Virus record (IMG/VR): IMGVR_UViG_3300021378_001495
Coordinates: 1-41,210 of that record
Strand: one strand, 5' to 3'
Length of the DNA stretch: 41,210 nucleotides
DNA from: a virus
Shown: positions 9,491 through 28,918 of the stretch, one piece after another
Layout of the letters: the number at the start of each line of letters is the position of its first letter
Numbering within the stretch: the first letter of the stretch is position 1
Program-made: the position numbers and the translations under genes
The notes under the pieces: model-generated
Told to the model about the DNA's origin: nothing
The model's input: the letters and a program-made list of their open reading frames with translations, nothing else
Databases searched by the model: none

Positions 9491-9537
9491 GAAATCTCCA
9501 ATCAATACGTGAATAACTAACCGCCGAGTGGCATCAG

Positions 9538-9566
9538 TTCAGATCACTTTAAACCTTGACTATAAT
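9538..9566 (+). promoter_or_regulatory. Sigma70-like promoter for tctC-tctA
   Basis: TTCAGA at 9538-9543 (4 of 6 bases), a 17-bp spacer and a perfect TATAAT at 9561-9566, 40 bp before the ATG of the TctC-like gene. The -10 box lies in a short dyad (GACTA...TAGTC). Confidence 0.5.
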
Positions 9567-9605
9567 TATCGTAGTCAAATTCAAAAATCAATCAAAGGAA
9601 AAAAG

Positions 9606-10706
9606 ATGAAAAAACTTTTAGCAACAGTTGCCTTGGCGACTATGATGGCTACTTCAGCAGTAGCAGACACTTTGACACTACAGTTTCCAAACGGCCCAGG
9701 TAAGGGCGGAACGGCATTCTGGGGTGACAATGTAATGAAAGAGCTTAATGCAAAGCTCGAAAAGCATGGACATAATATTGTTCCACGTTACCTACCTGGA
9801 CAACGTGGTAAAAAGTCCCTTAAAGATTGGGCAGGATCATATATGGAGCGTGGTGATACGCTCATGATTGCTCACGGCGGTAACGGCGAAGGCTTCCTAC
9901 TAGAAGATGTAGGTGGTTTTGATTATCGTGACTACGATCCAGTAGTTGTAATGAACACAAACATTTGGGTTTCTATTAACTCAGACGTTGACTGGAAAAA
10001 TGACGTAGTTAAATTTCCAGCAACAGGTGGTACAGGCTTTGCGGCTGACATCGTTGCAGTAGGACTTATGATGTGTGGACCAGAAGTTAATGCCACAGTT
10101 GAATCATTCCTAGAGTGTACAAACGAACGTGTACGTTTTATCCCAGGATTTAACTCTGGTGGTGAAAAGCGCCAAGCATTCCGTAGAGGACAGTTAGACG
10201 CAACACGTGATACTCCACAGACTTCTTTAATGGGTTATGCTAAAGAGTATGAGTCAGGACAAAGTCGTGTATGGTTTGCACACGGTATTGTAGACGGTAA
10301 AGGTTCTGTTTACGGTGATCCAAACGCACCAGAAGGCGCACAGTCTTTTAACGAAGTGTACGTTGCAGAGTGGGGCGTTGAACCAACAGGTCCTGTTTAT
10401 GATGCTTATAGAGCATTCCAAGGATATCGTGATGGTTTCCAAAAGACAGTATGGATTGCACCTAATTCTCCATACAAAGACGTAGTTAATCAAGCAGTTC
10501 AAGAAATGATTAACGATCCAGAAGCAATGGCTCGTTTAGATAAGAAACTTGGAGCGTTCCCTTGGTTAGCCGGTGATGAAGTTGTCGAATTTAGTGACTA
10601 CTTGTTCTCACTTATTAAAAGAGAGCGTCTTGAGACACTAGTTATTCTTGCAAATGACGTGTTTAAGTACCAAGATGCATACGTTAAGGAAGAACTACTC
10701 AAGTAA
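9606..10706 (+). CDS. tctC: TctC-like periplasmic solute-binding protein of a TTT transporter
   Basis: A 366-residue protein. The ATG at 9606 follows AAAGGAA and begins a clear signal peptide (MKKLLATVALATMMATSAVA, cut near residue 21). The mature part has the TctC/Bug family layout: a ligand-binding start with FPNGPGKGGTAFWGDN, the middle FNSGGEKRQAFRRGQLDATR and C-terminal WIAPNSPYKDVVNQAVQEM. Such proteins capture carboxylates (citrate, tricarballylate and others) and deliver them to TctA/TctB. At about 345 mature residues it is somewhat longer than usual. It overlaps TctA by one base. The ligand cannot be read from sequence. Carriage by a phage is unusual and probably feeds host carbon metabolism during infection. 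Confidence 0.82.
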   Translation: MKKLLATVALATMMATSAVADTLTLQFPNGPGKGGTAFWGDNVMKELNAKLEKHGHNIVPRYLPGQRGKKSLKDWAGSYMERGDTLMIAHGGNGEGFLLEDVGGFDYRDYDPVVVMNTNIWVSINSDVDWKNDVVKFPATGGTGFAADIVAVGLMMCGPEVNATVESFLECTNERVRFIPGFNSGGEKRQAFRRGQLDATRDTPQTSLMGYAKEYESGQSRVWFAHGIVDGKGSVYGDPNAPEGAQSFNEVYVAEWGVEPTGPVYDAYRAFQGYRDGFQKTVWIAPNSPYKDVVNQAVQEMINDPEAMARLDKKLGAFPWLAGDEVVEFSDYLFSLIKRERLETLVILANDVFKYQDAYVKEELLK

Positions 10707-12271
10707 TGGAGTGGATTCTACAATATCCAGTTGCCGTGCAGTGGGCTATTATGCTTACTGCCGGCATCTTTTATGGGGGCTTAATTGGATTAATTCCTAG
10801 TGCTGGCCCTGGTAAAGCAATCATTATGCTCTTCGTTATTGTACAGAGCTTTGATTTTACTGGCGGTAATTATCTATTCGTATTGTTTTCTATTGCAACA
10901 ATGGTATCATGTACTATTGGTGATAGTTTTGCAAGTGTACTCTTGGGGATACCAGGAGCATCAGGAGCGGCAAGTACAATGGTAGATGGATTTCCTCTAG
11001 CAAAGCAGGGTAAGGCAAGTTACGCTCTTAGTTCTGCAATTACAGTAAGCACAATTAATGGTTTATTATTTGGTGCATTAGGTATGGCTATTATTCCTTT
11101 TTATGGAGCGATAGCAGACTATGTTGGTGTACCAGAGATAGCTGGATTAATATTGGTAGCATTCTGTTTAATATCAGTTGTTACTACAAGAAATACGGGC
11201 AGAAGTTTAATTGCTATTGCAGTAGGTTTGTTTATTGGATCTATTGGTTATGGTATGATGGGCGAAGTTCGTAATACAGGCGGCTGGGCATACCTAGAAG
11301 ATGGTGTACCAGTTGTTATTGTGGCGGCTGGTTTGTTTGCACTTCCTGAATTATATGAAGCACTAACAACCAAGTATGAAGTCGCAAGAATTTCACGTAA
11401 GGAACACAATCAACAAACATGGGATGGCATTTTGGCTGTCTGGAAACACAAGTACCTAGCCTTTATGGGTGGGTGTATTGGTTTCGTTGTTGGTATCTTA
11501 CCTGGAACAGGTGGTGGTATTGGTGACTGGACAAGTTATAGTGCTACAGTTGCAATAAACAAAAATGAAAAAGTAAAGTTTGGTACTGGTAATATTAAAG
11601 GTGTTATCGGTCCTGAAGGCGCTAACAACGCTGGCAAGATGGGAGGCTTATTGCCTACTATTATGTTTGGTATTCCAGGCGGCAAAGTTTTTGCATTATT
11701 AATGGCCTTATGGCTTTATGTAGGCTTTGAAGTTGGTAGTCCATACATCATGGATGATACGCAGTTTATGAATAGTTTACTGGGTGGCTATATGTTTGGA
11801 ACATTCTTTGCTGGTGTACTGATGTTAGTGTTTGCAAGATGGTGTTGCAAAATCGTTTACATTAATCCATTATATTGGATCCCCCCAATGTTGGCGTTGA
11901 CGATTTGGGCAGTTCTTGCAAGTAGATTCTACGCAAGTGTGTATGAAGATTTAACCATGCTAGTAATATTTGGTATTATTGGTATGATAGCTAAGTATGG
12001 TAAGTTTAGTAGACCTGCCCTACTTATGAGTTATATCTTATTCCCACGTATTGAAGGATCTTATCTACAGTTGTCTAACGTATTCTTTTATGATGATATA
12101 CAGTCTGTGTCAGCGGCACTGGGCGGTGACTTTAGTTTATTAAGTCAAAACTATATCTTTAATAATCCTACGTTTATTCAACACCCTGTATTACCGATTG
12201 CTATTATAATTGGTATACTACTTCTATTGTACGGATTTTTTAATAAATCTCGGACAATGGATTACGCATAA
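10706..12271 (+). CDS. tctA: TctA-like large membrane subunit of a TTT transporter
   Basis: A 521-residue, many-helix membrane protein with the two repeat signatures of TctA: GLIPSAGPGKAIIMLF near the N-terminus and GILPGTGGGIGDWTSY in the middle, plus LLGIPGASGAASTMVDGFPL and MFGIPGGKVFALLMAL. Length matches TctA (about 500 residues). It forms the ion-coupled carboxylate channel and normally works with the small four-helix TctB. No TctB-like gene is present; the next gene has only one helix. TctC and TctA abut, as in bacterial operons, but the order is C-A without B. The host's TctB may serve, or the pair may work alone. Confidence 0.88.
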   Translation: MEWILQYPVAVQWAIMLTAGIFYGGLIGLIPSAGPGKAIIMLFVIVQSFDFTGGNYLFVLFSIATMVSCTIGDSFASVLLGIPGASGAASTMVDGFPLAKQGKASYALSSAITVSTINGLLFGALGMAIIPFYGAIADYVGVPEIAGLILVAFCLISVVTTRNTGRSLIAIAVGLFIGSIGYGMMGEVRNTGGWAYLEDGVPVVIVAAGLFALPELYEALTTKYEVARISRKEHNQQTWDGILAVWKHKYLAFMGGCIGFVVGILPGTGGGIGDWTSYSATVAINKNEKVKFGTGNIKGVIGPEGANNAGKMGGLLPTIMFGIPGGKVFALLMALWLYVGFEVGSPYIMDDTQFMNSLLGGYMFGTFFAGVLMLVFARWCCKIVYINPLYWIPPMLALTIWAVLASRFYASVYEDLTMLVIFGIIGMIAKYGKFSRPALLMSYILFPRIEGSYLQLSNVFFYDDIQSVSAALGGDFSLLSQNYIFNNPTFIQHPVLPIAIIIGILLLLYGFFNKSRTMDYA

Positions 12272-13055: not shown

Positions 13056-13283
13056 ATGATCTATAGGTTTAAAGATAAAGTAATAGAATGGGATGGTAAA
13101 GCCAGAGTTTATTCAGGGGGCTGGTTAGTCTTTAAGGGCTGTGGTTTTATCGGGATCTTAACTTTTATCAAGTTATGTGACAACCACCCTGATGTAGTTG
13201 AAAAATTTAAACCGCAATTAGAACAACGAGAAAAAACTCGCTTTAAGGAAGCAAAGCCTAATGACAATCAATTGTCTGGCTAG
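13056..13283 (+). CDS. Small hypothetical protein, one hydrophobic segment
   Basis: About 75 residues from the ATG at 13056 (MIYRFKDKVIEWDGKARVY). The purine-rich AAGGGGA lies too close to that ATG, so the in-frame TTG at 13044 is an alternative start. A moderately hydrophobic stretch (FKGCGFIGILTFIKLC) is followed by a charged tail. Its last 4 bp overlap the convergent Fis-like gene. No family recognised. Confidence 0.5.
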   Translation: MIYRFKDKVIEWDGKARVYSGGWLVFKGCGFIGILTFIKLCDNHPDVVEKFKPQLEQREKTRFKEAKPNDNQLSG

Positions 13284-13567
13284 GCTTCTTTTTCTTCTAT
13301 AAAACATCTTGCTGGCGACTTCAAACTAATCCCCAACCTTTTACAACGTGCAATTAAATTTGTTCTTCCCACCTTTAATAACGAGGCAGTATGTGTTTGA
13401 TTATAATCACACGCTTCTAGTGCTTCAACAACCATATTGGTTTCTTTATCTCGCAATTCAGCCTCTAAACTTGTATCATCAAATTTGGAAGGATAAATAT
13501 TTATTGTAGTGTTAAAGATCTCATCGAGTGAATCCCATAGATAGTCTTGTTCTGTTTTTTCGCTCAT
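13280..13567 (-). CDS. Fis-type helix-turn-helix DNA-binding protein
   Basis: A 95-residue minus-strand protein. Its C-terminal half, MVVEALEACDYNQTHTASLL followed by KVGRTNLIARCKRLGI, is a Fis-type HTH_8 domain (pattern ALxxxxxNQTxAAxxLxVxRxxLxxxxKxLGI). The N-terminal half is acidic and helical, probably for dimerisation. It is the only minus-strand gene among plus-strand genes and is divergent from the curli cassette, with the shared 75-bp gap holding a perfect inverted repeat. It is thus a natural candidate to control csgF and its followers, or its own expression. Convergent overlap with the gene to its left is 4 bp. Confidence 0.85.
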   Translation of the reverse strand: MSEKTEQDYLWDSLDEIFNTTINIYPSKFDDTSLEAELRDKETNMVVEALEACDYNQTHTASLLKVGRTNLIARCKRLGISLKSPARCFIEEKEA

Positions 13568-13642: not shown

Positions 13643-14122
13643 ATGCAGATTATAAAGTATTTAGTAGCAACAGTTATTCTTACCTGGGCATCAGCTAGTA
13701 TAGCTGGTGAACTTGAATGGTCCTTTAAATCACCAGCTTTTCATTACGGCAATGGATATAGTAACCATGTTCTAAGTGTAGAACAGTTAGGATATCAACG
13801 TAAAAAGGAACTGGAAGAATCCAAAAGGTCTGAAGAAGCTAGGCTGGAACGTGAACTAGAAAATACTACACTCAATAAGTTCTTAAAGAACGTTGAGTCA
13901 CGCATATATGCTACTCTTTCCAAACAAATGGTAGACAGTATGTTTGAGACTTGTGATGAAACTACTACAACCTGTCCAACAGGCGGTACAGCAGAAATCG
14001 AAGGATCAACTATTACTTGGTTGAAAGATTCTACAACAGGAAGTATTAAACTTACTATAGTTGGAGAAGATGGAACCACTACCGAAATCACGATTCCAGG
14101 TGCGGGGGAGTTTAACTTTTGA
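13643..14122 (+). CDS. csgF: CsgF-like curli assembly factor
   Basis: A 159-residue protein with a signal peptide (MQIIKYLVATVILTWASASIAG) and then GELEWSFKSPAFHYGN, which matches the mature CsgF N-terminus (F-x-F-R-N-P-x-F-G-G) that plugs into the CsgG pore. A charged helix (QRKKELEESKRSEEARLER), a Cys pair (ETCDETTTTC) and a C-terminal beta region ending in ITIPGAGEFNF follow. In curli systems CsgF couples CsgG secretion to surface nucleation by CsgB. GGAGGG lies before the ATG. It overlaps csgG by 4 bp. The Cys pair is not found in enteric CsgF, as far as I recall. Confidence 0.8.
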   Translation: MQIIKYLVATVILTWASASIAGELEWSFKSPAFHYGNGYSNHVLSVEQLGYQRKKELEESKRSEEARLERELENTTLNKFLKNVESRIYATLSKQMVDSMFETCDETTTTCPTGGTAEIEGSTITWLKDSTTGSIKLTIVGEDGTTTEITIPGAGEFNF

Positions 14123-15282
14123 AAAAACAAATACTCCTAAGTTTCCTGGCAGTAATACTCGGCGGGTGTTCGTCAATGAATCAATCTCTAGACGTTTATA
14201 GAGAGAGTCAAGACAATAACGCTTCGCCTAAAGTGCAAGTCAGCCCTATAGCAGAAAGACTAGAAGATGTCCCGAAGCTAGACGGCAAAAAGATTACAAT
14301 CGCAGTCTACGGTTTTCAAGATAAAACAGGACAGCGTAAACCAGTAGCTGGTGTGTCTAGTTTATCTAGTGCAGTTACACAAGGTTCAGAAGTTTGGGTA
14401 ATCAAAGGCTTACAAGATGTAGGTGGACAATCGTGGTTTGAGGTGGTAGAGCGTGTAGGCATGGACAATCTAATCAAGGAACGCCAGTTGATACGCAATA
14501 CGAGAGAAGTTTATGAGAAGGAAAAGGTTTCAGGACCTACTCCTTTAAAACCACTCCGTTTTGCTGGGCTAATACTTGAAGGTGGGATTGTCGGCTATGA
14601 TGCTAACACCGCTGTTGGCGGCATAGGTGCCCGTTTCTTGGGTATAGGCGCACAAACAGAGTATAGAGTAGATACAGTGACAGTAGTCATACGTATGGTT
14701 AGTGTAAGCACAGGGAGAGTGATGCTCAGCATCGCGACAGAGAAATCAATTGCAAGCACGAGAAGTGGAGCCGACATATTTAAGTTTTTAGACTTGGGTA
14801 CAAAAGCAATAGAGAGTGAAACTGGTTACAGTGTCAATGAACCAGTAAACTATGCCGTAAGGGCGGCTATTGAATGTGCCATTATAGAATTAGTATATGA
14901 AGGTGAAAAGACAGGCTTGTGGAAATTTAAACAAGACATAGATGATAAAAAGGCAGAAGTAAAAGAACTAAGTTCTGACAGACCAGTATTAAGACCCGAG
15001 GATAAGATTCAAAAACTAGCAATGCAAGCATTGTCTGGTGTAGAGATGAAAAGAACGGCACAGGATTCTGGACAATTACCCATTATTAGTGATGGGCCAC
15101 ATGGGACAAAGACGTGGCAACCAACTATAGAATGGAAGTGGAGCAAAGACTTAAACACAACAACAGATCGTGAATATCAATTTTGTGATAAAGACGAACG
15201 GTGTTTCAAAACTAGTACTGATCTATATAGGTTTGAATCATTACAAGCAATTAAAAAGGATAGTTTGACCATGTCAGACTAA
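14119..15282 (+). CDS. csgG: CsgG-like outer-membrane curli secretion lipoprotein
   Basis: A 387-residue lipoprotein. It starts with TTG at 14119, inside the csgF stop (TTGA), with GGGGGAG 8 bases upstream. The lipobox is LGGCSS. ITIAVYGFQDKTGQRKP matches the CsgG family strand (VAVYxFxDxTGQ), with VWVIKGLQDVGGQSWFEVVE, RFAGLILEGGIVGYDANT and RVDTVTVVIRMVSVSTG following in the order of the CsgG nonameric pore domain. A C-terminal extension of about 100 residues goes beyond the usual 260-280. CsgG forms the export channel for curlin subunits. A complete form with lipobox and transmembrane strands suggests it is functional in the host outer membrane. Confidence 0.9.
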   Translation: MKKQILLSFLAVILGGCSSMNQSLDVYRESQDNNASPKVQVSPIAERLEDVPKLDGKKITIAVYGFQDKTGQRKPVAGVSSLSSAVTQGSEVWVIKGLQDVGGQSWFEVVERVGMDNLIKERQLIRNTREVYEKEKVSGPTPLKPLRFAGLILEGGIVGYDANTAVGGIGARFLGIGAQTEYRVDTVTVVIRMVSVSTGRVMLSIATEKSIASTRSGADIFKFLDLGTKAIESETGYSVNEPVNYAVRAAIECAIIELVYEGEKTGLWKFKQDIDDKKAEVKELSSDRPVLRPEDKIQKLAMQALSGVEMKRTAQDSGQLPIISDGPHGTKTWQPTIEWKWSKDLNTTTDREYQFCDKDERCFKTSTDLYRFESLQAIKKDSLTMSD

Positions 15283-15300
15283 CAAATATTGGGGGATATT

Positions 15301-16005
15301 ATGAGATTGTTTTTCGTCGTGCTTATGCTACTCACAGCAGGGTATGCATCAGCGAATGAGATTTACATACAGCAAGTAGGTGACACTTTGGATTTGGACA
15401 TCACACAAGATGGTACAGATAACAAAATTGGTACAAGCTCGCAAGATGTAATTTTAGGTGCAACAGGCACCGCAAGTGATACTATGACATTTGCTATCAC
15501 ACAAACAGGTAACAGCAACGCTATTACCGCACAAATATTAGGTACTACATATACAGGTACATGGACTTTTACAGGTAACAGCAACACAGTTGACTTACTT
15601 TGTGATAGTAGTGGCGCAGGTAACTGTGATACCGTAATAATGAATATTGCCACAACAGGTAATAGTAACGCTTACACAATTAAGGTTGGTGAATCAGCTG
15701 ATTCAGATGGCTTAACAGCTAACTTTACTGTAACAGATGATGGTGCAGTTATTGCAACAGATGTTAATGGTAAAGCCGCAAACTTAACAGTGACAGTTAA
15801 CAAGAATAGTTCATCTATTAGTACAGTGAACACTTTAGATCTTGATATGGCTGGTGATGGCGATATTTTAGGTCACACACAAATATTAAGTGTAAAAGGA
15901 AGAGGAAATAGTGTAACGATTAACCAATCTGGTGTTAAGGATAATCACGTTGATTTGGATATGACAGGCGATAACGCTGACGTAGACATCATTCAATCAG
16001 ATTAA
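15301..16005 (+). CDS. Curlin-repeat amyloid protein 1 (CsgA/CsgB-like)
   Basis: A 234-residue secreted protein. The ATG at 15301 follows GGGGGAT. The signal peptide MRLFFVVLMLLTAGYASA is followed by NEIYIQQVGDTLDLDITQDG, a curlin repeat, and further repeats of the Q-x-G-x-x-N-x-x-x-x-Q type (FAITQTGNSNAITAQILG, TFTGNSNTV, TTGNSNAYTI, SVTINQSGVKDNHV). These beta-strand-loop-strand units stack as the amyloid core of curli. The middle repeats are degenerate. It shares its mature N-terminus with the second curlin at 17150. The next short gene begins 20 bp later. Confidence 0.83.
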   Translation: MRLFFVVLMLLTAGYASANEIYIQQVGDTLDLDITQDGTDNKIGTSSQDVILGATGTASDTMTFAITQTGNSNAITAQILGTTYTGTWTFTGNSNTVDLLCDSSGAGNCDTVIMNIATTGNSNAYTIKVGESADSDGLTANFTVTDDGAVIATDVNGKAANLTVTVNKNSSSISTVNTLDLDMAGDGDILGHTQILSVKGRGNSVTINQSGVKDNHVDLDMTGDNADVDIIQSD

Positions 16006-16025: not shown

Positions 16026-16079
16026 ATGTACATTATAAAAAATACTAAGATTCCTTCAGGGGATCACAATGATACTTAG
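16026..16079 (+). CDS. 17-residue leader-like peptide between curlin and FecR genes
   Basis: ATG at 16026 with a near-ideal CTAGGAGG site 5 bases upstream. It reads MYIIKNTKIPSGDHNDT and stops at TAG 16077-16079, overlapping the FecR-gene start (16069) by 11 bp. The strong ribosome site and coupling suggest a translated leader that controls FecR synthesis. It may also be a remnant. Confidence 0.45.
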   Translation: MYIIKNTKIPSGDHNDT

Positions 16080-17202
16080 GTTTTTACTATTATTAGTATT
16101 AGCAACGCCAGCGTATGCTGACATTGGTGACATAGGAAAGATTAAAGGATCAGGCGCCCTTGAACGTGGCAATGAAAGTATTATTGCAGAACAGGGCGTG
16201 TCTGTGCAAACCATGGACACGGCTGTTACCGCAAATGCCAAGATGCGTATTGACTTTATTGATGATACTCGTGTTGATATAACACAACACAGTAGATTAT
16301 TAATAGATGAGTTTGTTTACGATCCTGCAAATGATATTGGATCACTAAGCATTAAAGCAACATTAGGAACAGTCCGTTATGCAAGCGGACAAATCGCAAA
16401 AAAATACCAACAAAATGTAAAGATTAGAACACCAAGTGCAACAATTGGTGTACGTGGTACCGACTTCATTATGGTTGTAGATGAGATGGGTGGATCAATG
16501 ATTACCCTATTACCCAGCTGTGATGTTAGCGGTAACTGTTATACAGGTGAGATTGAGGTAGAAACAGACACTGGTTTCGTTATACTTAATCAAGCATTCC
16601 AAGCTACATTAACTTCAACAAGATGGCAACCTCCTGCAAAGCCACTGTTACTTAATATAGACGAGAAGGAGATTAACAGTCTTCTAATCTTACGTAAAAA
16701 GAACCCTTATGAAGATGAAGAGTATGAAGAATATGTTAAGCGTAAGAAGCTTGCAGATTTTTTAGGTATTGACTTCTTAGAATTTGATGGACTTGATGCT
16801 GATGCACTAACTGATGATATACAAAATATATGGGAAACAGAACTTGATGCACATTCTTATATGTTACAAGATCTTCTGTTTGATATCCTAGATCAGTTAA
16901 ATGCATCAATTAGTGCAAGTTTTCAAGATGAATTAAAAAGACAAAACAAATTATTTTTATCAGAAGGTTCTAAGAGTATAAACAAAGATCAATACGGATT
17001 TGATCCAGCTACAGGTATTAATTTAATTAAAGAAGAACCATATAGAATATTAGAAAGACGTGATCCAATAACAGGTGATTACTTGCGGCTTAAATTATAT
17101 CTACATGGTGGTTATACGATAAATATGACACAAGGGGAGTGGGAACAATATGATTACAAATTGGGCGCCGATAGCTCTAGTACTATTGATATTAAACAGT
17201 AG
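16069..17202 (+). CDS. FecR-domain periplasmic/surface protein
   Basis: A 377-residue protein with a signal peptide (MILRFLLLLVLATPAYA). It then carries a FecR domain: a strand-rich N-terminal part with VQTMDTAVTANAKMRIDF and the signature KIRTPSATIGVRGTDFIM (TPxAxxGVRGT), about residues 30-140. The C-terminal part is acidic, coiled-coil-like and without repeats. AGGGGA lies 5 bases before the ATG. In bacteria, FecR-domain proteins of this soluble type are often encoded beside CHASE2 cyclases, and one lies two genes downstream here, so it may sense or present a surface signal. It overlaps the second curlin by 53 bp. Confidence 0.87.
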   Translation: MILRFLLLLVLATPAYADIGDIGKIKGSGALERGNESIIAEQGVSVQTMDTAVTANAKMRIDFIDDTRVDITQHSRLLIDEFVYDPANDIGSLSIKATLGTVRYASGQIAKKYQQNVKIRTPSATIGVRGTDFIMVVDEMGGSMITLLPSCDVSGNCYTGEIEVETDTGFVILNQAFQATLTSTRWQPPAKPLLLNIDEKEINSLLILRKKNPYEDEEYEEYVKRKKLADFLGIDFLEFDGLDADALTDDIQNIWETELDAHSYMLQDLLFDILDQLNASISASFQDELKRQNKLFLSEGSKSINKDQYGFDPATGINLIKEEPYRILERRDPITGDYLRLKLYLHGGYTINMTQGEWEQYDYKLGADSSSTIDIKQ

Positions 17203-18175
17203 TGCAGTACTAGCAAATGATATCTATATACAACAGGTAGGTGATGATCTTGATATGGACATCACTCAAGATGGTTCCAATAATCAGGTTGAAGGATTGT
17301 CTGGCAGTGGTGATGCCCAAATAAGTGGGAACAATAAAACAATCGCACTAACACAACAAGGTGACAACAACCAGTATCGTATCTGGACAAACGGTGACAA
17401 TCAACAAATGACAGCAACAACCACAGGAAACAATAATATAACCGCCATGGATAATCATGGAAACAATAATAATATGTCTATAAGTATTACTGGTGGCTAC
17501 AATCAAACTCATACTGAAATAGGAAACGGTGGCGATAACGATAACGCCATAAGTTTAACTATAGACAATGGTGATGATAATTATATATACTCTGAAGTAC
17601 AAAACGGCGATTATAATCAAATAGACACACAAATACATAGCCAAGACGATGGTTATATAAAAGTAACAGTCAATGGTAATAGTAATAATATTAAAGCATG
17701 GCAAGGCAAGCACGAAGATGGTAATGTAGATTCAGATGAAACTGGTGACAATGAGGTATATTGGATTGTATCAGGTAACAGCAATAACCTTGCAAGTTAT
17801 CAGACAGATGATAACGGTAATGGTGGACAGCATATTGCAAACTATGTTACAGGTAATAGTAATACAGTAAAACACACACAGCGTGGTGCAAGTGATCACA
17901 GAGGCTTCATTGAAATAGGTGGCGATAGCAATACTGTAGAGCTTAAACAAAGAGGGAATAGCAATGTACAGTTCGCTGATATAGTTTTAGATGACGGACA
18001 CACAGTTGATGTACATCAGAGATACGGTAGTCATACCGCTAACATTGACCTTACAAACGCAGGCGGCGGATATACATTAGATTTAGATCAAACTGCCAGC
18101 ACTAACCAAACATATAACCTAACAGGTACGTGTGCGACTGTGGGTGGTTGTGGCTTAACAATAACACAAAACTAA
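17150..18175 (+). CDS. Curlin-repeat amyloid protein 2 (larger)
   Basis: A 341-residue secreted protein: signal peptide ending SSAVLA, then NDIYIQQVGDDLDMDITQDG, almost the same as in curlin 1, and about a dozen Asn/Gly/Gln-rich repeats (LTQQGDNNQYRI, TTTGNNNITAMD, VNGNSNNIKAWQ, VSGNSNNLASYQ, VTGNSNTVKHTQ, IGGDSNTVELKQ). The period is about 20-23 residues, as in CsgA. It ends TCATVGGCGLTITQN with a Cys pair. The start lies in the FecR gene (53-bp overlap) after AGGGGAG. With curlin 1 it may form a major-subunit and nucleator pair like CsgA/CsgB, which is inference. Confidence 0.85.
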   Translation: MITNWAPIALVLLILNSSAVLANDIYIQQVGDDLDMDITQDGSNNQVEGLSGSGDAQISGNNKTIALTQQGDNNQYRIWTNGDNQQMTATTTGNNNITAMDNHGNNNNMSISITGGYNQTHTEIGNGGDNDNAISLTIDNGDDNYIYSEVQNGDYNQIDTQIHSQDDGYIKVTVNGNSNNIKAWQGKHEDGNVDSDETGDNEVYWIVSGNSNNLASYQTDDNGNGGQHIANYVTGNSNTVKHTQRGASDHRGFIEIGGDSNTVELKQRGNSNVQFADIVLDDGHTVDVHQRYGSHTANIDLTNAGGGYTLDLDQTASTNQTYNLTGTCATVGGCGLTITQN

Positions 18176-18187
18176 GGAGACTTATGC

Positions 18188-18424
18188 ATGATAGAATTGG
18201 TAATGGCAGGATATTTACAGTGCTCACTAGCCGCACAAATAATAGTCAACGAAGACCGAAAATGTTTCTATCAGTGCCGAGACTCAAGCAGAGAGTTCGC
18301 TTCAACACTAAAGCAATATCAATGCCCTAAAACACTTTATGCTGATAGACCAGCATTACCCTTTAAAGAACGAGACCGTAAAAACAAATGGACCAAAGAG
18401 GAAATAGAAAAATATGCTGAGTAA
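18188..18424 (+). CDS. Small Cys-rich protein in curli cassette
   Basis: 78 residues with AAGGAG 8 bases before the ATG. The N-terminus MIELVMAGYLQCSLAAQII may be a weak signal peptide. Four cysteines (C12, C26, C30, C46) are in place for two disulfides outside the cytoplasm, and the C-terminal third is charged. By position between curlin and cyclase it may be an assembly helper in the manner of CsgC/CsgE, but no sequence similarity to them is visible. It overlaps the cyclase by 11 bp. Confidence 0.6.
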   Translation: MIELVMAGYLQCSLAAQIIVNEDRKCFYQCRDSSREFASTLKQYQCPKTLYADRPALPFKERDRKNKWTKEEIEKYAE

Positions 18425-20468
18425 ATATATAACACATTGGTTAACACCACTACTTACGGCAACGTTAATAGCACTCTTTCACTATTCAGATAACTTTGTA
18501 GTTGAAACAGTAAGACTTAAATCATTTGACCTATTACAACAAACTGATAAACCTATTGCAAGTCAGGATATAGCAGTTGTTGAAATAGACGAAGCCTCTA
18601 TAGAAAAATATGGACAGTGGCCCTGGAGCAGAGAAGTAATTGCAGATATTATATGGCAGTTGCGTGAAGCTGGTGCAGGCATTATAGTATTACCCATGCT
18701 GTTCAGCGAGGACGATAGACTTGGAGGCGATGAAGCCCTAGCTGATGCACTATACGAAAATGGTGTTATCATTGCACAAACAGGAAGTATACAGGCGAAT
18801 AAGAATGCAGTGCCACGTGGTGTTGCAAAGATAGGTGACCCTCTACCCTACTTGTTTGAATGGCCAGGCATGCTTGGACCAATTCCATTACTAGGCGAAA
18901 CAGCAACAGGTGTTGGCGTACTAAACACAGCACCAGAGATAGATGGCGTAGTTCGTCGTGTACCATTAATCATGCGTGTGGGAGAAGAAACATACCCTAG
19001 TATCGCAGTTGAAGTTATACGTGTAGCAACCAACGCTCCAAGCTATCAGATCAAAGCAAATGCAGGCGGCGTAGAAAAAGTACGTGTGCCTGGATATCCA
19101 ATAATTAATACTGATCCCAACGGACAAATATGGTTACGTTGGAACAAAGAGTTTTCATCAGTTAGTGCCACTGATACTTCTAACTTTGCACTATTACAAG
19201 GTAAAACTGTAATAGTTGGAGTTACGGCAGAGGGTATTGGTGGTATTATAGCGAGTCCAAAAGGGCCACAGTTCAATTACATTCCAGCGGCTACAACACT
19301 ACAAAATTTGCTGGATGGAGATCAAATTGAACGTCCCTTTTGGGCTCTCCTAGCAGAACTAATAGCAACAGCCGCAGTTGGTTTAATAATTGTAGTTGTT
19401 GCAGGATTGGCACCCTACTGGTTAGTAGGGGCTGTCGTAGTTGGGTTAGGAGCAGGCTTGGGGTATGGTAGTTTATATGCTTGGCAAAACTATTTGTATC
19501 TGATTGATGTAAGTATGCCACTATTAGCAGTTGTAATCGTTGCATTACATGCAGTGTTTAATAGGTTTATAAGTGAATACTTTCAGAAGATGGAAATTAA
19601 AAAGCAGTTTGCTGGATACGCATCACCTACAGTTGTGCGTATGCTACAGGAAAATCCAGCATTAATTAAAGACGGTATGAAGAAGGAAGTTTCAATTTGC
19701 TTCTCAGACTTGCGTGGATTTACACCACTGGGCGAATCATTTGGAGATGATGTTAAAGGTCTTACAAAGATTATGAATGGCTACATGGATGCAATTACCC
19801 AACCAATACTTGATGCTGATGGAATGGTAATCAAGTATATTGGTGATGCAAGTATGCATGTACACAATGCACCAATTGAAGACCCAGACCATCCTAAAAC
19901 AGCAGTACAATGTGGACTGGATATGTTAAAAGCAGTGGAGATATTTAATGACAAAATTACAGCAGAAGGTAGACCACCAGTGGGTATGGGGGCTGGTATT
20001 AATACTGGTCTTGGGTATTTGGGCGAGATGGGTTCCACAGCCAGACACAGTTACGATGTCCTTGGGGACTCAGTGTCCACAGCCGCCAGAATTGAAAGTA
20101 AATGTAAAGAGTATGGATGCGTATTACTTATTGGACAAGCCACTTACGATCAGACAAAGGATGATTTCTTTTACTTAAAAATAGATGACCTAGCAGTTAA
20201 AGGTAAGAGTGTTGGTATTGGTATATGGACTGTACTAGATGATGCAAAGCCAGCGTGGCGTACAGCAAAACGCAAGCATGAAGAGATGTATGAGTTCTAC
20301 CTAGCACAAAAGTTTGATGATGCTATAGCGAGTTGTAATTTATTACACAACCACTTTGATGGTAAGATGTCTGGATATTACGATATGTGGATTGAACGTT
20401 GTGAGTATATGAAAACACAAGAGTTACCTAAGGACTGGAACGGTGTGTTTATTGCTACTACAAAGTGA
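18414..20468 (+). CDS. CHASE2-domain class III adenylate cyclase
   Basis: A 684-residue membrane enzyme. One N-terminal helix (residues 7-24) leads into a CHASE2 sensor outside the membrane (about 30-305, with IAVVEIDEASIEKYGQWPWS typical). Three helices follow at about 312-380 and then a class III cyclase domain (about 425-615). Catalytic residues seen are D432 in CFSDLRGFT, K474 and D478 in KYIGDASM, D548 in YDVLGD, and R559. The usual Asn of VNxAAR is Ser555. The Lys/Asp pair favours ATP over GTP. All key metal ligands are present, so it looks active. It closes the curli/FecR cassette, right before a terminator-like hairpin. A cyclic nucleotide signal made by a phage enzyme would be very unusual. 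Confidence 0.92.
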   Translation: MLSKYITHWLTPLLTATLIALFHYSDNFVVETVRLKSFDLLQQTDKPIASQDIAVVEIDEASIEKYGQWPWSREVIADIIWQLREAGAGIIVLPMLFSEDDRLGGDEALADALYENGVIIAQTGSIQANKNAVPRGVAKIGDPLPYLFEWPGMLGPIPLLGETATGVGVLNTAPEIDGVVRRVPLIMRVGEETYPSIAVEVIRVATNAPSYQIKANAGGVEKVRVPGYPIINTDPNGQIWLRWNKEFSSVSATDTSNFALLQGKTVIVGVTAEGIGGIIASPKGPQFNYIPAATTLQNLLDGDQIERPFWALLAELIATAAVGLIIVVVAGLAPYWLVGAVVVGLGAGLGYGSLYAWQNYLYLIDVSMPLLAVVIVALHAVFNRFISEYFQKMEIKKQFAGYASPTVVRMLQENPALIKDGMKKEVSICFSDLRGFTPLGESFGDDVKGLTKIMNGYMDAITQPILDADGMVIKYIGDASMHVHNAPIEDPDHPKTAVQCGLDMLKAVEIFNDKITAEGRPPVGMGAGINTGLGYLGEMGSTARHSYDVLGDSVSTAARIESKCKEYGCVLLIGQATYDQTKDDFFYLKIDDLAVKGKSVGIGIWTVLDDAKPAWRTAKRKHEEMYEFYLAQKFDDAIASCNLLHNHFDGKMSGYYDMWIERCEYMKTQELPKDWNGVFIATTK

Positions 20469-20528: not shown

Positions 20529-20690
20529 TTACATCATTGATAAATGCACTAGCCACATACATATTTTAGCTGAAATAACACCTATTAATACACCACATAA
20601 GCCAATTAATATAACTTCATAAGTATGCCAAGTAGGCTGTTTCTTCATCCACGCTTGTGTAGTCTCATTTTGTCTTTCGAGCCATCCCAC
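20529..20690 (-). CDS. Small membrane protein with one helix
   Basis: About 53 residues. A GTG start at 20690 is chosen because GGGGAG stands 7 bases upstream; an in-frame ATG at 20717 lacks this. The sequence has a polar N-terminus (GWLERQNETTQAWMKK) and one hydrophobic helix (VILIGLCGVLIGVISAKI). It overlaps the upstream coiled-coil gene by 26 bp. Last gene of the minus-strand block. Confidence 0.6.
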   Translation of the reverse strand: MGWLERQNETTQAWMKKQPTWHTYEVILIGLCGVLIGVISAKICMWLVHLSMM

Positions 20691-21012
20691 GATCTTTCTC
20701 CCCTTTGAAACTTTCAATGTCGTCGAGATCTATATCAAGTTTCTTACCAGTCATCTTTTCGTATTCTTCTTTATACTCGATAACCATATTTAGTTTTTGC
20801 TGGAGACGGATCATATCATTATCTAACATTCTAATACGATCAATCAAACCAATAAGAGTTCCCATAGCATCTCCAAGAACAGGTTTCACTTCATTTACTA
20901 CCCATTTCCATACGTAGTAAATTATAAATCCCATGCCAACAGCCGCTACAATAGGAAACCCATATTGGCTGATTGCTTCTGTTAATGTATTAGGACTCAG
21001 AGCCTTCTCCAC
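20665..21012 (-). CDS. Membrane-anchored coiled-coil protein, paralogue A (holin-like layout)
   Basis: 115 residues: a short N-terminus, one helix at about residues 17-37 (GFPIVAAVGMGFIIYYVWKW) and a coiled coil (LIGLIDRIRMLDNDMIRLQQ). It is similar to the protein at 21195: GFPIxxAxGxGFxI and MxxLIxxxDxRxxxxxNDxxxxx line up. One helix plus coiled coil is the layout of small BhlA-like holins and of spanin-like helpers, but function is not proved. Confidence 0.65.
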   Translation of the reverse strand: MEKALSPNTLTEAISQYGFPIVAAVGMGFIIYYVWKWVVNEVKPVLGDAMGTLIGLIDRIRMLDNDMIRLQQKLNMVIEYKEEYEKMTGKKLDIDLDDIESFKGEKDRGMARKTK

Positions 21013-21194: not shown

Positions 21195-21473
21195 TTAGTC
21201 TCTCCTTGCGTCCGCTTTACCTTCGTTTGCGGCAATACGGTCGGTATTAGGTTTCACGCCCATGGCGTATGACATCAAGGCATCAATCTTAACTAAATCA
21301 TTATTCATTGTTTGCACTCTATTGTCGAGACCCTTAATCATTCCATTTATTGTCTTCACCTGAACTGTTACACTACCAAGTATAAACTTTAGCGTAGTAA
21401 AGATAAAGAACCCAGCACCCAAAGCACTGGCGATTGGAAATCCTACGTCTCCTATAAAACCAAAGAACTCCAT
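21195..21473 (-). CDS. Membrane-anchored coiled-coil protein, paralogue B (holin-like layout)
   Basis: 92 residues: MEFFGFIGDVGFPIASALGA starts a membrane helix (about 11-33), followed by a coiled coil (INGMIKGLDNRVQTMNNDLV). It is a clear relative of the protein at 20665-21012. GGGGGG at 21479-21484 (minus) and an AATAAATA late-like box precede the start. Pairs of this type could be holin and antiholin, which is inference. Confidence 0.65.
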   Translation of the reverse strand: MEFFGFIGDVGFPIASALGAGFFIFTTLKFILGSVTVQVKTINGMIKGLDNRVQTMNNDLVKIDALMSYAMGVKPNTDRIAANEGKADARRD

Positions 21474-21509: not shown

Positions 21510-22212
21510 AAGATTGTAGTTTTTTGTAGTCTAAACCAGTCAATTCTTGGAAGTATTGTAACCATATATCTTCATTGTCTTGTCCCCACACTTGGTTAAA
21601 TGGCCCACCATTTGTAAAGTGTAGAGCATAAGGTTCTGGGTTAATGTCATATTCTCCTACTAACCAATTCCAACGAACATCTAATGATCCTATTCTAATA
21701 TCATCTGTCCATTGAAATCTATGTAAGTATTGTGGTGACATATTGTTTACGGCTATGGTACTGAGCTTTTGCACGTCTGGGTGACTGCAATTAAAAAGTA
21801 TTAAGCTACTCCAGTTCTTTTTAGGAACAGCTTCTTGTTGCTCACCGTAAAATTTAAATTCGTTTTTGGGAGTGTACTCTGCATGTCTTACAACAAAACA
21901 GCTATATCTTTCTGAGCCTGGACGTTGTATAATATCCTCAACGACTGGTGTTATATCTTTTAGGAACACAAAGTCGCTGTCAACAAACATTGCCCAGCCT
22001 TCAAACTTTTCTAAGTGTGGTATTAGAAATCTACTGTAGGTAAACTCTGTACTTGCTTTACCCTCTGTACGCCAATAGACTCCATCTTTTACGAGTTTAT
22101 CCATACGTAATATATCAATATCTATATTGTATTTGGCGTGCTTATGTAAACTGTACTCGCAAACTTTAGTTGCATCTTGTTGTTTACTGTCATGTCCTAT
22201 GTATATTTTCAT
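21508..22212 (-). CDS. GT8-like glycosyltransferase
   Basis: About 234 residues from the ATG at 22212 (MKIYIGHDSKQQDATKVCEY); an in-frame GTG at 22266 is an alternative. AMFVDSDFVFL carries the D-x-D metal-binding motif of GT-A enzymes. YSRFLIPHL, SLILFNCSHPDVQKL and ALHFTNGGPFNQVW match the order of GT8-type sugar transferases, whose C-terminal H-x-x-G-x-x-K region is similar. It would transfer a sugar from a nucleotide donor to an unknown acceptor. It overlaps the radical SAM gene by 23 bp. Confidence 0.75.
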   Translation of the reverse strand: MKIYIGHDSKQQDATKVCEYSLHKHAKYNIDIDILRMDKLVKDGVYWRTEGKASTEFTYSRFLIPHLEKFEGWAMFVDSDFVFLKDITPVVEDIIQRPGSERYSCFVVRHAEYTPKNEFKFYGEQQEAVPKKNWSSLILFNCSHPDVQKLSTIAVNNMSPQYLHRFQWTDDIRIGSLDVRWNWLVGEYDINPEPYALHFTNGGPFNQVWGQDNEDIWLQYFQELTGLDYKKLQS

Positions 22213-23050
22213 TCCAGATATTGGCGCTCTCTTCTCCGCTTTTACAACCGTTTGTATTACACCCACTACAAGCAGGTAGGTTGCTTCTATTTCCTAATAA
22301 CAGTTCCTTGCGAACTGCCATGAATTCAGCAGACATCCATATGTTATTGAATGTATCAGTATTTATATTGCCGAAATCTTGTTGTTTTCTAGCCCAATCG
22401 TTACAACACAAACCTACTCCGCCGTCCCAATCAATGAATGCTTTATACATAGGCATCCAACATTGTTGTTGCAATGATTCAATCATACCCATTGTACCAC
22501 CACGATTGTTAAAGTCGTATACTTCTAATAGGTTTGATTCTCCAGTGTCGTAGTTATTTCTAATCCTGCACTTGCCTACAAAGTTTGACATAAGTTCTGT
22601 CATTGCTTTTGTCTGTTCAGGACCATCGTAACAGTCTATTATTATATGGCTCAAGCCATACGCACTTAGCTCTTGGTGTGTGAGTTTACCATTCAGTAAA
22701 CGATCACCATTAGTAATCATTTCAGTGTGGAAGTTTTTACTGAATGCATCAATGATCTCTAATATATGTGGATTAAGTGTAGGTTCACCCCAGCCTGTAA
22801 TATGTATATCACCACTGTAGTTTGCATCAAGCAGTTGTTTACTCAATGTTTCCGCAGTTGCTACAGACATATGTAAGTTGCGATTAGGATATATGTCTGG
22901 ATCAACTCTAGGACAGAAGCTACATTTTCTGTTACATAATTCAGTAGGATTTATCTCTACAGTTGCTAGACCCAATAGTTTTTCGTTAGTTGTGTCAAGC
23001 TCGTTGTATCTATTCTTTCTATGGGTAATGTGTTCTAGGAAGTCGTTCAC
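22190..23050 (-). CDS. Radical SAM/SPASM protein
   Basis: 286 residues. The radical SAM motif is CNRKCSFC (C39, C43, C46), followed by HITGWGEPTLN (the GGEP-like SAM site) and EMITNGDRL. C-terminal cysteines in CWMPMY, GLCCNDW, LPACSGC and TNGCKSG form a SPASM domain with two auxiliary clusters. SPASM enzymes modify peptides, sugars or proteins. The start is directly at the stop of the protein at 23050-24012, so the two are coupled. Confidence 0.87.
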   Translation of the reverse strand: MNDFLEHITHRKNRYNELDTTNEKLLGLATVEINPTELCNRKCSFCPRVDPDIYPNRNLHMSVATAETLSKQLLDANYSGDIHITGWGEPTLNPHILEIIDAFSKNFHTEMITNGDRLLNGKLTHQELSAYGLSHIIIDCYDGPEQTKAMTELMSNFVGKCRIRNNYDTGESNLLEVYDFNNRGGTMGMIESLQQQCWMPMYKAFIDWDGGVGLCCNDWARKQQDFGNINTDTFNNIWMSAEFMAVRKELLLGNRSNLPACSGCNTNGCKSGEESANIWNENIHRT

Positions 23051-24012
23051 TACAAATCTTTCCTATTCTTACTGATATTATTTTTAGTGTTAGTTATAAC
23101 TCTTTGTTTACTTGGATCTGGTGTGAAGTCAGTGTCCACTAAGCTCTTTGGATAATGATCAAATCCTTCATACAACCATCCATCTTCCTTCTTTTTGAAC
23201 ATATAATCACCCATCATAAAGATATCACCTTTAAATACACATTGGTTTAATAACTTTTGAGGACCATATTCAATCATTGCTTCGCGGTGTATTGTATCTG
23301 TGTATGAGAATGAAGGTAATACAAGTCTAAACTTTTGTGGATTGCTTTTGTATTTGCCAAACTTCCTTAACCACCTAGCCATACCCTTTGCCCATGGTCC
23401 AAACTGATCGTCTTCATATGAATATCCATCGTCACCTGCAGTGAATACAACCTCTTCGTAGTGCCAATTAAATCTAGGATCACTTGACTTTTTAAATATG
23501 CTTGCAAGTTGTTTAGCAGTATGTATCTGTGTCCAATCGTCTAAACTCCAAAAGAAAGGCTGTTGATCTATTTCAGGATACCATATATAAAATAGCTCTA
23601 TCTCTTCTAAGTCTTGTAAGAAAACAGTTGCAATCTTTTTATCACCGCCTGGATGGCATGTATAGTATCTACCAGAGTTAATTATTTGCATGGGAGCCAT
23701 AATACCATTCTCTTTAATATCGTTTACTAACCACAGCTTCTTTGCAATCCTATAACATGTGTATAGATCCTCATCATTATTCCATTCCCAATGCTCACAC
23801 TCTGAAAAGCGTTGCTTTGTTTCTTTATCAAGTTGTCTGAACTCTTCTATTTGATTACTAAATCCTAACATGACACTACCTATTCTACCACCATTTGGGA
23901 TTGGATCTAGCAGTGATCGCAGTTGTCTACTATTAGATTTGACGTGTATAACTTGAGCTCTCCCAGTAGTATGAGCCCAATCAAACCATTGATCTAAATT
24001 TTTTACTCTCAC
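23050..24012 (-). CDS. Hypothetical protein with possible ParB-like motif
   Basis: 320 residues, soluble. The part ENGIMAPMQIINSGRYYTCH, then PGGDKKIAT, resembles the ParB/sulfiredoxin-like pattern G-x-x-x-P-hydrophobic with a later HPGxxR/K-like box seen in some phage proteins. No other domain is recognised, and the C-terminal third is basic. It overlaps the radical SAM gene upstream by 4 bp and shares one base with the one downstream, so it belongs to the same modification cassette and may be a substrate-handling partner. Confidence 0.6.
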   Translation of the reverse strand: MRVKNLDQWFDWAHTTGRAQVIHVKSNSRQLRSLLDPIPNGGRIGSVMLGFSNQIEEFRQLDKETKQRFSECEHWEWNNDEDLYTCYRIAKKLWLVNDIKENGIMAPMQIINSGRYYTCHPGGDKKIATVFLQDLEEIELFYIWYPEIDQQPFFWSLDDWTQIHTAKQLASIFKKSSDPRFNWHYEEVVFTAGDDGYSYEDDQFGPWAKGMARWLRKFGKYKSNPQKFRLVLPSFSYTDTIHREAMIEYGPQKLLNQCVFKGDIFMMGDYMFKKKEDGWLYEGFDHYPKSLVDTDFTPDPSKQRVITNTKNNISKNRKDL

Positions 24013-25100
24013 ATCTTATCCTCTATTTCAGCAAACCAATCTTTAAATTCAGGACGTAAGTCTAAAACATTTGATTTACGTACTTTGTCTAATGCAGTTA
24101 TAAACTTATAAAATTTTATTTGCATATCTATTTCTGGTTTACTGGTTGGCCATATACTTGTAGGTAATACTCTATCTACATCTAGGTATTCAGGCTTGTA
24201 TACTTTTTGGTGGTGGTATTGGAGTTGACTTCGGTACACACCCTTGTCATACCATTCTCTCATAATTGGTTTAGCTAGTGTTGACTGATCATATGTTATA
24301 GGATGAATTGTATCTATAACAAATACTCGCCTACATATTGATAATATCCTTGTAATATTATCTTTCACTTCCTCAATACCAAAGTGATCACCTCTAGCAT
24401 ATCTATATATTTTATCGTCCCATGCGTCAACACTAATTTGCATGTTCAGTCTTTTAAATTTGGATAGTTTGTTTAATATATCTGTATCTATCAATGTTCC
24501 ATTTGTCATTATACGCAAGTGACAATCAGGTACATGTTCACTTAGAAATTTAATAAACTCTAACGCATCTTCTTGGTAGAGTGGCTCTCCACCTGATAGT
24601 TCAACAGTACCTAAGTCTCTCCACCACTCTAAAGGTATTTTTGTCCACCAGTCTATTCCCATTGTACTATAAGGAACCTCAGGTAATCGCATGTCGTGAT
24701 CAAGTAACTGATTCATCCTCTTCTCATCTTTGAGCCACGCAGTGCTACGATCACTGCCACACATCACACACTTAAGGTTACACTTGTTTGAGAAGTCTAT
24801 CTTAAGATAGAATTTGTTACCATTATTAGTATACTTTTTTAGCTTGAATCGTTGGCTAATACCTTCTGGATCTGCTTCTCTGTCTATGCAGACAGCACAG
24901 TCGTTATTGTAACCGCCATGCTGTAACACACTATACTTTTTAATGTACTCAGGACTTTGTAGTATGCTTAGAAAGTCTTCAGTGTTATTTAACTTATATG
25001 TATGGCTATCTACATTACTGGCAAGTGAACAACACAGTCGCATAGTATTGTCTTGTCTTAGCCATACGTGTTGATTGCCTGCCTGGCACCATCTAGTCAT
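24009..25100 (-). CDS. Radical SAM protein with N-terminal cysteine cluster
   Basis: 363 residues. The radical SAM motif CNLKCVMC (C107, C111, C114) lies late in the chain, with ELSGGEPLYQ and RIMTNGTLI following. Before it come C5, C23, C24 and the C68-x-x-C71 pair, so what looks like a SPASM/twitch-type auxiliary cluster region is in front of the core instead of behind it. Similar layouts occur in radical SAM proteins of marine T4-like phages. The ATG at 25100 is the first gene of the minus-strand operon reading to 20529. Target unknown. Confidence 0.85.
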   Translation of the reverse strand: MTRWCQAGNQHVWLRQDNTMRLCCSLASNVDSHTYKLNNTEDFLSILQSPEYIKKYSVLQHGGYNNDCAVCIDREADPEGISQRFKLKKYTNNGNKFYLKIDFSNKCNLKCVMCGSDRSTAWLKDEKRMNQLLDHDMRLPEVPYSTMGIDWWTKIPLEWWRDLGTVELSGGEPLYQEDALEFIKFLSEHVPDCHLRIMTNGTLIDTDILNKLSKFKRLNMQISVDAWDDKIYRYARGDHFGIEEVKDNITRILSICRRVFVIDTIHPITYDQSTLAKPIMREWYDKGVYRSQLQYHHQKVYKPEYLDVDRVLPTSIWPTSKPEIDMQIKFYKFITALDKVRKSNVLDLRPEFKDWFAEIEDKM

Positions 25101-28365: not shown

Positions 28366-28918
28366 ATACAATCCAGGTAATGGTGGCTGGGCAGTTGCAA
28401 ATATAATTAACACTTGCCTTGGACATACATTACAACCAAGTGAAGCAGAACAGTTTGAAGGTAACGGCCATAACACAAGTTTATACGACAGGCTAAGTTC
28501 AGAGAAAGAATTAATGCGTACACAAACTGATACCAGTATAAATTTTGAATATGAAGCATATTCGGAAGGAATTTGTTTGCCCATACATTATGAGTTTAAC
28601 ACACCAACAAGTGCAGAACATGTTATAGATGTGTTCCGTAGTAGCAATCATCACTATGTTCCTTGGAACTTATATAATAAAGAAGAAGATTGGGAACTAA
28701 CACCTCAATTTATTGATAGGGCAATAGAGATGAGTACTAATAAAAATACTGGTGATTTTGATACAGCAATAGCATTTGATGATCATAACCCAGACTATGT
28801 AGGAAAATTCCTAAGCAAATATAGTTTAGTACCAACAGAAGAAACATGGCATTTTTATTATGACTATGTAACAAAACAAAAAGAGTTGAATAGTAAATGT
28901 ACAATTACTCAGACGTAA
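28349..28918 (+). CDS. Hypothetical protein, possible sulfotransferase-like fold
   Basis: 189 residues. The N-terminus MLLIVRYNPGNGGWAVANII has a Gly-rich turn after a strand that recalls the P-loop of phage sulfotransferase-like proteins, though no Lys is present. No other motif is clear. It overlaps the membrane gene by 17 bp and the radical SAM gene by 22 bp. Function not assigned. Confidence 0.6.
   Translation: MLLIVRYNPGNGGWAVANIINTCLGHTLQPSEAEQFEGNGHNTSLYDRLSSEKELMRTQTDTSINFEYEAYSEGICLPIHYEFNTPTSAEHVIDVFRSSNHHYVPWNLYNKEEDWELTPQFIDRAIEMSTNKNTGDFDTAIAFDDHNPDYVGKFLSKYSLVPTEETWHFYYDYVTKQKELNSKCTITQT

Follow-up and report, generated by a model that had tools for sequence, protein, structure and literature searches.

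What does a membrane-bound nucleotide cyclase do in a marine phage? The question is raised by a gene at 18414–20468 in a 41,210-nucleotide stretch of viral DNA from a marine phage (IMG/VR record IMGVR_UViG_3300021378_001495, positions 1 to 41,210), the whole of which we refer to as the window. The gene lies beside curli genes, which are widespread in marine phages and unexplained.

Architecture and active site of the cyclase

The gene (+ strand, ATG start) encodes a 684-residue protein that we identified as a CHASE2/class III nucleotide cyclase from Pfam, PHROG, an AlphaFold2 model and a fold match. A CHASE2 sensor domain (residues 18–324, 18465–19385; PF05226, E 9.7e-44), which we take to be periplasmic from what is known of the family, is followed by three long helices predicted by AlphaFold2 (residues 311–332, 335–360 and 367–399, 19344–19610) that would form the membrane part and the linker. 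The active-site alignment and the fold match place the class III catalytic domain at residues 420–612 (19671–20249), and the alignment and the model place a conserved helical extension at the C-terminus (residues 613–684, 20250–20465). Pfam Guanylate_cyc (PF00211) matches residues 423–599 above its cut-off (E 1.7e-15). In the model, built from 62 aligned sequences (mean pLDDT 88.7, pTM 0.63), the helices sit between CHASE2 and the catalytic domain, giving the order CHASE2 and then membrane helices. The modelled catalytic domain aligns to CyaB of P. aeruginosa (Z 25.9, rmsd 1.9 over 189 residues) and also to Cya2 and CyaC. The protein matches PHROG 35576 (E 9e-195) and is 66% identical to its counterpart in phage Melnitz and 45% to that in HTVC008M, both annotated as adenylate/guanylate cyclases. 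These results agree with an earlier note on this DNA, which had described the gene as a phage copy of a membrane-bound class III cyclase carrying a CHASE2 sensor.

No near phage came up when the window region was compared by megablast, and a peptide-pattern search found relatives of the cyclase encoded on 390 viral stretches. Against its relatives, dN/dS was about 0.04–0.11 for the catalytic domain, which is conserved more strongly than any other part of the protein, and 0.07–0.13 for CHASE2, with dS partly saturated in these comparisons. Because of the low catalytic dN/dS and the many viral relatives, the gene is not a chance reading frame; it is real and under strong purifying selection. The PHROG match and the copies in Melnitz and HTVC008M show that the family is fixed in phages.

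The alignment shows D432, K474, D478, D548, R559 and K598 in the window cyclase, and Ser555 (codon 20076–20078) at the position of the usual catalytic Asn. The two metal Asp, the Lys/Asp pair, the Arg and the Ser are thus exactly as the note had listed them. D432 and D478 are found without exception in the phage and bacterial relatives that cover these positions, and K474, R559 and K598 are invariant across the phage sequences where covered. The window protein therefore has the metal Asp pair, the fold, the substrate Lys with its Asp/Thr/Ser partner and the catalytic Arg of class III, and is without the catalytic Asn. This Asn is usual in the class but does not define it, being absent from accepted members such as Rv1900c, which is not known to have a CHASE2 domain. 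The Lys474/Asp548 pair favours adenine, so that the product would most likely be cAMP. The change from Asn to Ser could lower or change activity. As a comparison, Rv1900c, a mycobacterial class III cyclase, also departs from Asn at this position, with His where the window has Ser, yet is active, so loss of the Asn alone does not mean inactivity (PMC4886424).

To see how common this active site is, we typed the 95 unique phage proteins in which the motif could be read. Asp548/Ser555 occurs in 80 of these and Ser or Thr548/Asn555 in the other 15, and none of the 95 has a mixed pair. Positions 473, 480, 482 (Ala to His), 484 (Trp to His), 538 (Asn to Glu) and 545 change together with the Asp/Ser pair. 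By contrast, bacterial CHASE2 cyclases, at about 30–38% identity to the window protein, have Ser or Thr at 548 and Asn at 555: all 72 covered bacterial relatives are of this kind, and the Asp/Ser type was found in 0 of 91. In the catalytic-domain tree the Asp/Ser type forms a single clade on a long branch. A search for a bacterial donor of this domain in 289 genomes from one alphaproteobacterial class gave best matches of at most 45% identity, and all 20 best matches that were fetched are Asn-type; phyla outside this class were covered through CHASE2 patterns only. Among the proteins compared, the Asp548/Ser555 type is thus seen only in phages, and on these data it appears to be phage-specific and monophyletic.

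These changes bear on whether the protein is an enzyme. Ser in place of the catalytic Asn in 80 of the 95 typed proteins, along with the changes at 473, 480, 482, 484, 538, 545 and 548, would fit a weak or inactive pseudo-cyclase in which the protein serves as a FecR/CHASE2 membrane scaffold and nucleotide only stabilizes the dimer. We think this unlikely, since the metal Asp pair, Lys474, Arg559 and Lys598 do not vary where covered, the catalytic domain is the best-conserved part of the protein and Rv1900c works with His for Asn. The invariant metal residues, Lys474 and Arg559, the low dN/dS and the fold match to active cyclases argue instead for an enzymatic role.

The curli module of the window and of other phages

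In the window the cyclase is the last gene of a csgF-csgG-curlin-fecR-curlin-cyclase module on the + strand. It is preceded by genes for a CsgF-like protein (13643–14122; PF10614, E 6.5e-10), the CsgG outer-membrane pore (14119–15282; PF03783, E 4.1e-46), a first curlin-repeat protein (15289–16005; PF07012, E 8.7e-5), a FecR-domain protein with a signal-peptide-like start (16069–17202; PF04773, E 3e-8) and a second curlin-repeat protein (17150–18175). The last of these has a weak PF07012 match (E 0.048) and a match to a CsgA model (E 0.0016), and by position and HMM it is homologous to the annotated curlin of Melnitz. As the csgF, csgG, curlin and fecR genes are neighbours on the same strand, this is a phage T8SS (curli) module. 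The same cyclase gene with the same neighbours in the same order is found in HTVC008M (AGE60353) and Melnitz (gp104). The Melnitz cyclase shares Asp548/Ser555 with the window, whereas that of HTVC008M has the ordinary Ser548/Asn555 and is without the C-terminal extension present in the window.

A phage cyclase in a curli setting is not new. Wittmers et al. (2022; PMC9599517) described, in the part of their article on which we draw, a phage T8SS cluster with CsgF, CsgG, CsgA/B, FecR and adenylate cyclase that occurs in myo- and podo-pelagiphages, with an alphaproteobacterial origin and metatranscriptome support. The same part does not describe the CHASE2 domain, the type of active site or an exchange of domains. 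Others have considered phage curli genes as a means of 'sibling capture' or as a lysis pore (Zaragoza-Solas, 2020, PMC7029224; Buchholz, 2022, PMC9004378). Apart from Wittmers et al., we found no open-access work that deals with phage CHASE2 domains or with cAMP in SAR11. What is new here is the phage catalytic type, the domain exchange, a sensor that tracks FecR, the consistent linkage described next, a Caulobacteraceae operon and a survey of the SAR11 order. The earlier note was right about a CHASE2 class III cyclase on a phage contig but overlooked its linkage to CsgF, CsgG, curlin and FecR.

To measure this linkage without counting loci that had been selected by the cyclase itself, we searched viral contigs for matches to a CsgG profile and chose loci by csgG. 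The best 80 csgG loci include 34 with 6 kb or more of downstream sequence, and every one of these 34 encodes both FecR and the cyclase. Some of these contigs overlap those of our first, cyclase-based scan, and podovirus modules may be under-represented because the best 80 loci are biased to closer relatives. We conclude that the cyclase probably provides the signalling function of a curli secretion module carried by phages, given this linkage, the gene order shared with HTVC008M and Melnitz and the bacterial FecR precedent described below. The link to the module could also be a case of a bacterial operon that has hitchhiked genetically. The whole module has bacterial relatives, which would be expected if bacterial DNA had been misassembled into, or were passing through, a phage contig. 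We regard this as hardly credible, because the same order is shared by two phages in culture and by dozens of independent contigs, the phage type of active site was not seen in the bacterial relatives compared, and the window carries a phage sliding-clamp gene and PHROG genes. On this evidence the cyclase is a constant component of the phage curli module, with FecR as its likely partner.

Several other features were noted around these modules. A Fis-type HTH protein (13280–13567, – strand; PF02954, E 9.4e-8) is encoded divergently from csgF and is found in 18 related loci; it is a possible regulator of the module. Two short membrane/coiled-coil proteins assigned by homology to PHROG 18771 (20665–21012 and 21195–21473, – strand), one with a weak holin match and the first without a Pfam domain, have homologues in HTVC008M and Melnitz, where the pair lies immediately upstream of csgF; in the window it is inverted and lies downstream of the cyclase. 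These may be the 'histidine kinase' genes of the literature. On one viral contig (L047, 1–6612) the cyclase is still next to the module, but the curli genes have the inverted orientation with respect to it. Four contigs from MAGs labelled Pirellulales, Rhodobacteraceae and Flavobacteriaceae (L085–L088) carry a phage-type module or cyclase, and we therefore treated them as misbinned phage contigs, as they appear to be, and not as bacterial. Matches labelled as Acinetobacter 'phage' look like host DNA because of their housekeeping neighbours.

The sensor domain, FecR and bacterial relatives

Domain trees placed the monophyletic catalytic type on two deep CHASE2 clades. The window cyclase and that of one phage locus (L064) are 91% identical in the catalytic domain and 39% in CHASE2, whereas with another (L067) the values are 43% and 70%. 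Sliding identity shifts sharply near residues 385–400, which marks the exchange breakpoint. These patterns of identity indicate that the catalytic domain has been exchanged between different sensor backgrounds.

We then compared distances across 68 dereplicated loci with partial Mantel-type tests and permutation p values. With CsgG and CsgF controlled, CHASE2 distance correlated with FecR distance (partial r 0.34, permutation p 0.001), and showed no correlation with that of CsgG (–0.04) or CsgF (–0.06). Catalytic-domain distance was not correlated with FecR distance (partial r –0.09, p 0.89). Direct contact between FecR and CHASE2, with an interchangeable output domain, fits this pattern. The correlation is supportive and not decisive, because tests of this type are anti-conservative for related sequences and overstate significance.

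From this we propose that, in the periplasm, the FecR protein of the phage would assemble with or monitor the CsgG/curlin apparatus and set the state of CHASE2. CHASE2 would then switch the cytoplasmic cyclase dimer, leading to production of a cyclic nucleotide, most likely cAMP, that would signal the state of the envelope or of curli while infection proceeds. The FecR–CHASE2 switch in this model is suggested by the correlation of CHASE2 with FecR, which the catalytic domain does not share.

Similar arrangements occur in bacteria. A scan of genome contigs with CHASE2 patterns gave about 76 cellular loci. Where a bacterial CHASE2-cyclase locus had at least 5 kb on each side, FecR was present in the stretch in 25 of 42 cases and within 500 bp in 12 of 42. 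Whole genomes have 1–9 FecR domains (30 genomes checked), so a gene-density estimate predicts about one FecR-adjacent locus by chance. CHASE2 cyclases of Campylobacterota likewise cluster with FecR proteins (PMC9239204), as does cyaD1 of S. meliloti with the gene for a FecR protein (PMC5498481). The architecture of these proteins and of the alphaproteobacterial CHASE2 cyclases is that of the window protein, and a FecR-domain neighbour is frequent. Deletion of CHASE2 from S. meliloti CyaD1 leads to constitutive cAMP, and SMc02177, which has a FecR domain, is dispensable for sensing of the plant signal (PMC5498481). The latter result counts against a simple ligand role for FecR.

The closest cellular counterparts are in two Caulobacteraceae MAGs (L089 and L136), each with a csgF-csgG-curlin-curlin-fecR-cyclase operon. 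In L136, the one whose surroundings were inspected, ordinary metabolic chromosomal genes flank the operon. Like the phage module, these operons contain csgF, csgG, two curlins and fecR, together with the nearest cellular cyclase. Unlike the phage module, both curlins precede fecR, and the active site is the ordinary Thr548/Asn555. Trees of the two domains both unite the L089 cyclase with the phage copies (SH-aLRT 100 for CHASE2 and 96 for the catalytic domain). Gene content and trees thus identify this operon as a chromosomal relative of the whole phage operon. The phylogeny called for in the note places the phage copies outside the copies of any one bacterial genome, in a clade of their own with this one chromosomal relative. 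The Caulobacteraceae cells have 6–7 cNMP-binding proteins.

Possible readers of the signal

We searched for a receptor with the cNMP-binding domain PF00027 and found none in the window, in 16 other phage contigs or in the complete genomes of HTVC008M and Melnitz. This bears on whether the cyclase could be a Pycsar-like (PycC) enzyme of defence or counter-defence. PADLOC PycC models do match the catalytic domain (best E 1.3e-14), but the match is confined to the core common to class III, at 52 bits against 57.5 for generic Guanylate_cyc. No cNMP-binding effector, adjacent or elsewhere, was found on the contig or the relatives searched, and the constant partners are curli genes. We rejected a PycC identity for want of the adjacent effector and consider a role of this kind very unlikely.

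For hosts, we defined a SAR11 order as the one to which two genomes (1.2 and 1.3 Mb) with exact matches to a SAR11 16S probe sequence belong; it comprises 117 genomes and may not include the host of the window phage. A class III cyclase (PF00211) was found in 0 of the 117 and a CRP-like match likewise in 0. Seven have a weak PF00027 match, in frames of 870 residues in six genomes and 372 residues at a contig end in one. Where sizes are given, these frames are too large for a CRP, and we did not accept them as such. The one inspected by eye is a large, fused protein with a putative acyltransferase-type part. A second family, reached via tandem hxlA genes, is by inference Methylophilaceae and would be the host family of Melnitz-type phages. 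In this family 54 of 57 genomes have Crp/Fnr-type PF00027 proteins, three small genomes have no PF00027 and 55 of 57 have no PF00211. Because of these absences, its Crp-like proteins may not be cAMP receptors.

The note had suggested that the cyclase raises host cAMP and alters CRP-dependent control. Reprogramming of CRP/Clr-dependent host genes in this way would be in keeping with the adenylate-type Lys/Asp pair and with the Crp/Fnr-type proteins of the Methylophilaceae-like genomes. It finds no support for SAR11 phages, where neither a class III cyclase nor a CRP-like match occurs in the 117 genomes and the weak cNMP-binding matches are not CRP-sized, and it is weakened in the Methylophilaceae-like family by the genomes without class III cyclase or PF00027. 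We therefore consider this explanation distinctly unlikely. Judging from genome content, the CRP route appears to be unavailable in SAR11-type hosts and is uncertain in other hosts. For signalling from the curli module, which we still favour, the reader in SAR11-type hosts would thus be something other than a host CRP. Counting against this model are the change from Asn to Ser at 555 and the lack of a cNMP receptor in the phages and SAR11-order genomes searched.

These data raise the question of what a cyclase with an altered active site does in cells without known cAMP receptors, and the variant catalytic domain, its modular exchange and the missing receptor lift the gene above routine annotation. 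A more speculative idea, which we hold to be possible but rather doubtful, is that the Asp548/Ser555 domain, with His482, His484 and Glu538, represents a new subtype of class III that evolved in phages and whose chemistry or product is altered. Occurring widely in marine phages and joined to different sensors tuned by FecR, it would feed an orphan second-messenger circuit through a non-CRP receptor in hosts without known cAMP machinery.

Some genes elsewhere on the contig were also recorded. A sliding-clamp-like protein (30084–30839) is closest to those of the jumbo phages Phosso (41%) and PA5oct (38%), and curli-cyclase modules related to that of the window lie on contigs of 307 kb (L067) and 203 kb (L068). 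Together these suggest that the window phage may come from a large-phage lineage and that the curli-cyclase module may have reached jumbo phages. A gene for TctA (PF01970, E 6.9e-75) follows one for a TctC-like secreted protein, the latter recognized by eye, at 9528–12271; these are tripartite tricarboxylate transporter genes. The protein at 35227–36519 is a xanthine/uracil-type permease (PF00860, E 2.7e-51), and its PHROG 27398 label of 'tail protein' is probably a misannotation. Several radical SAM proteins, of SPASM and twitch types, are encoded on this one contig at 3498–4433 (recognized by eye only), 22190–25100 and 28897–29988.
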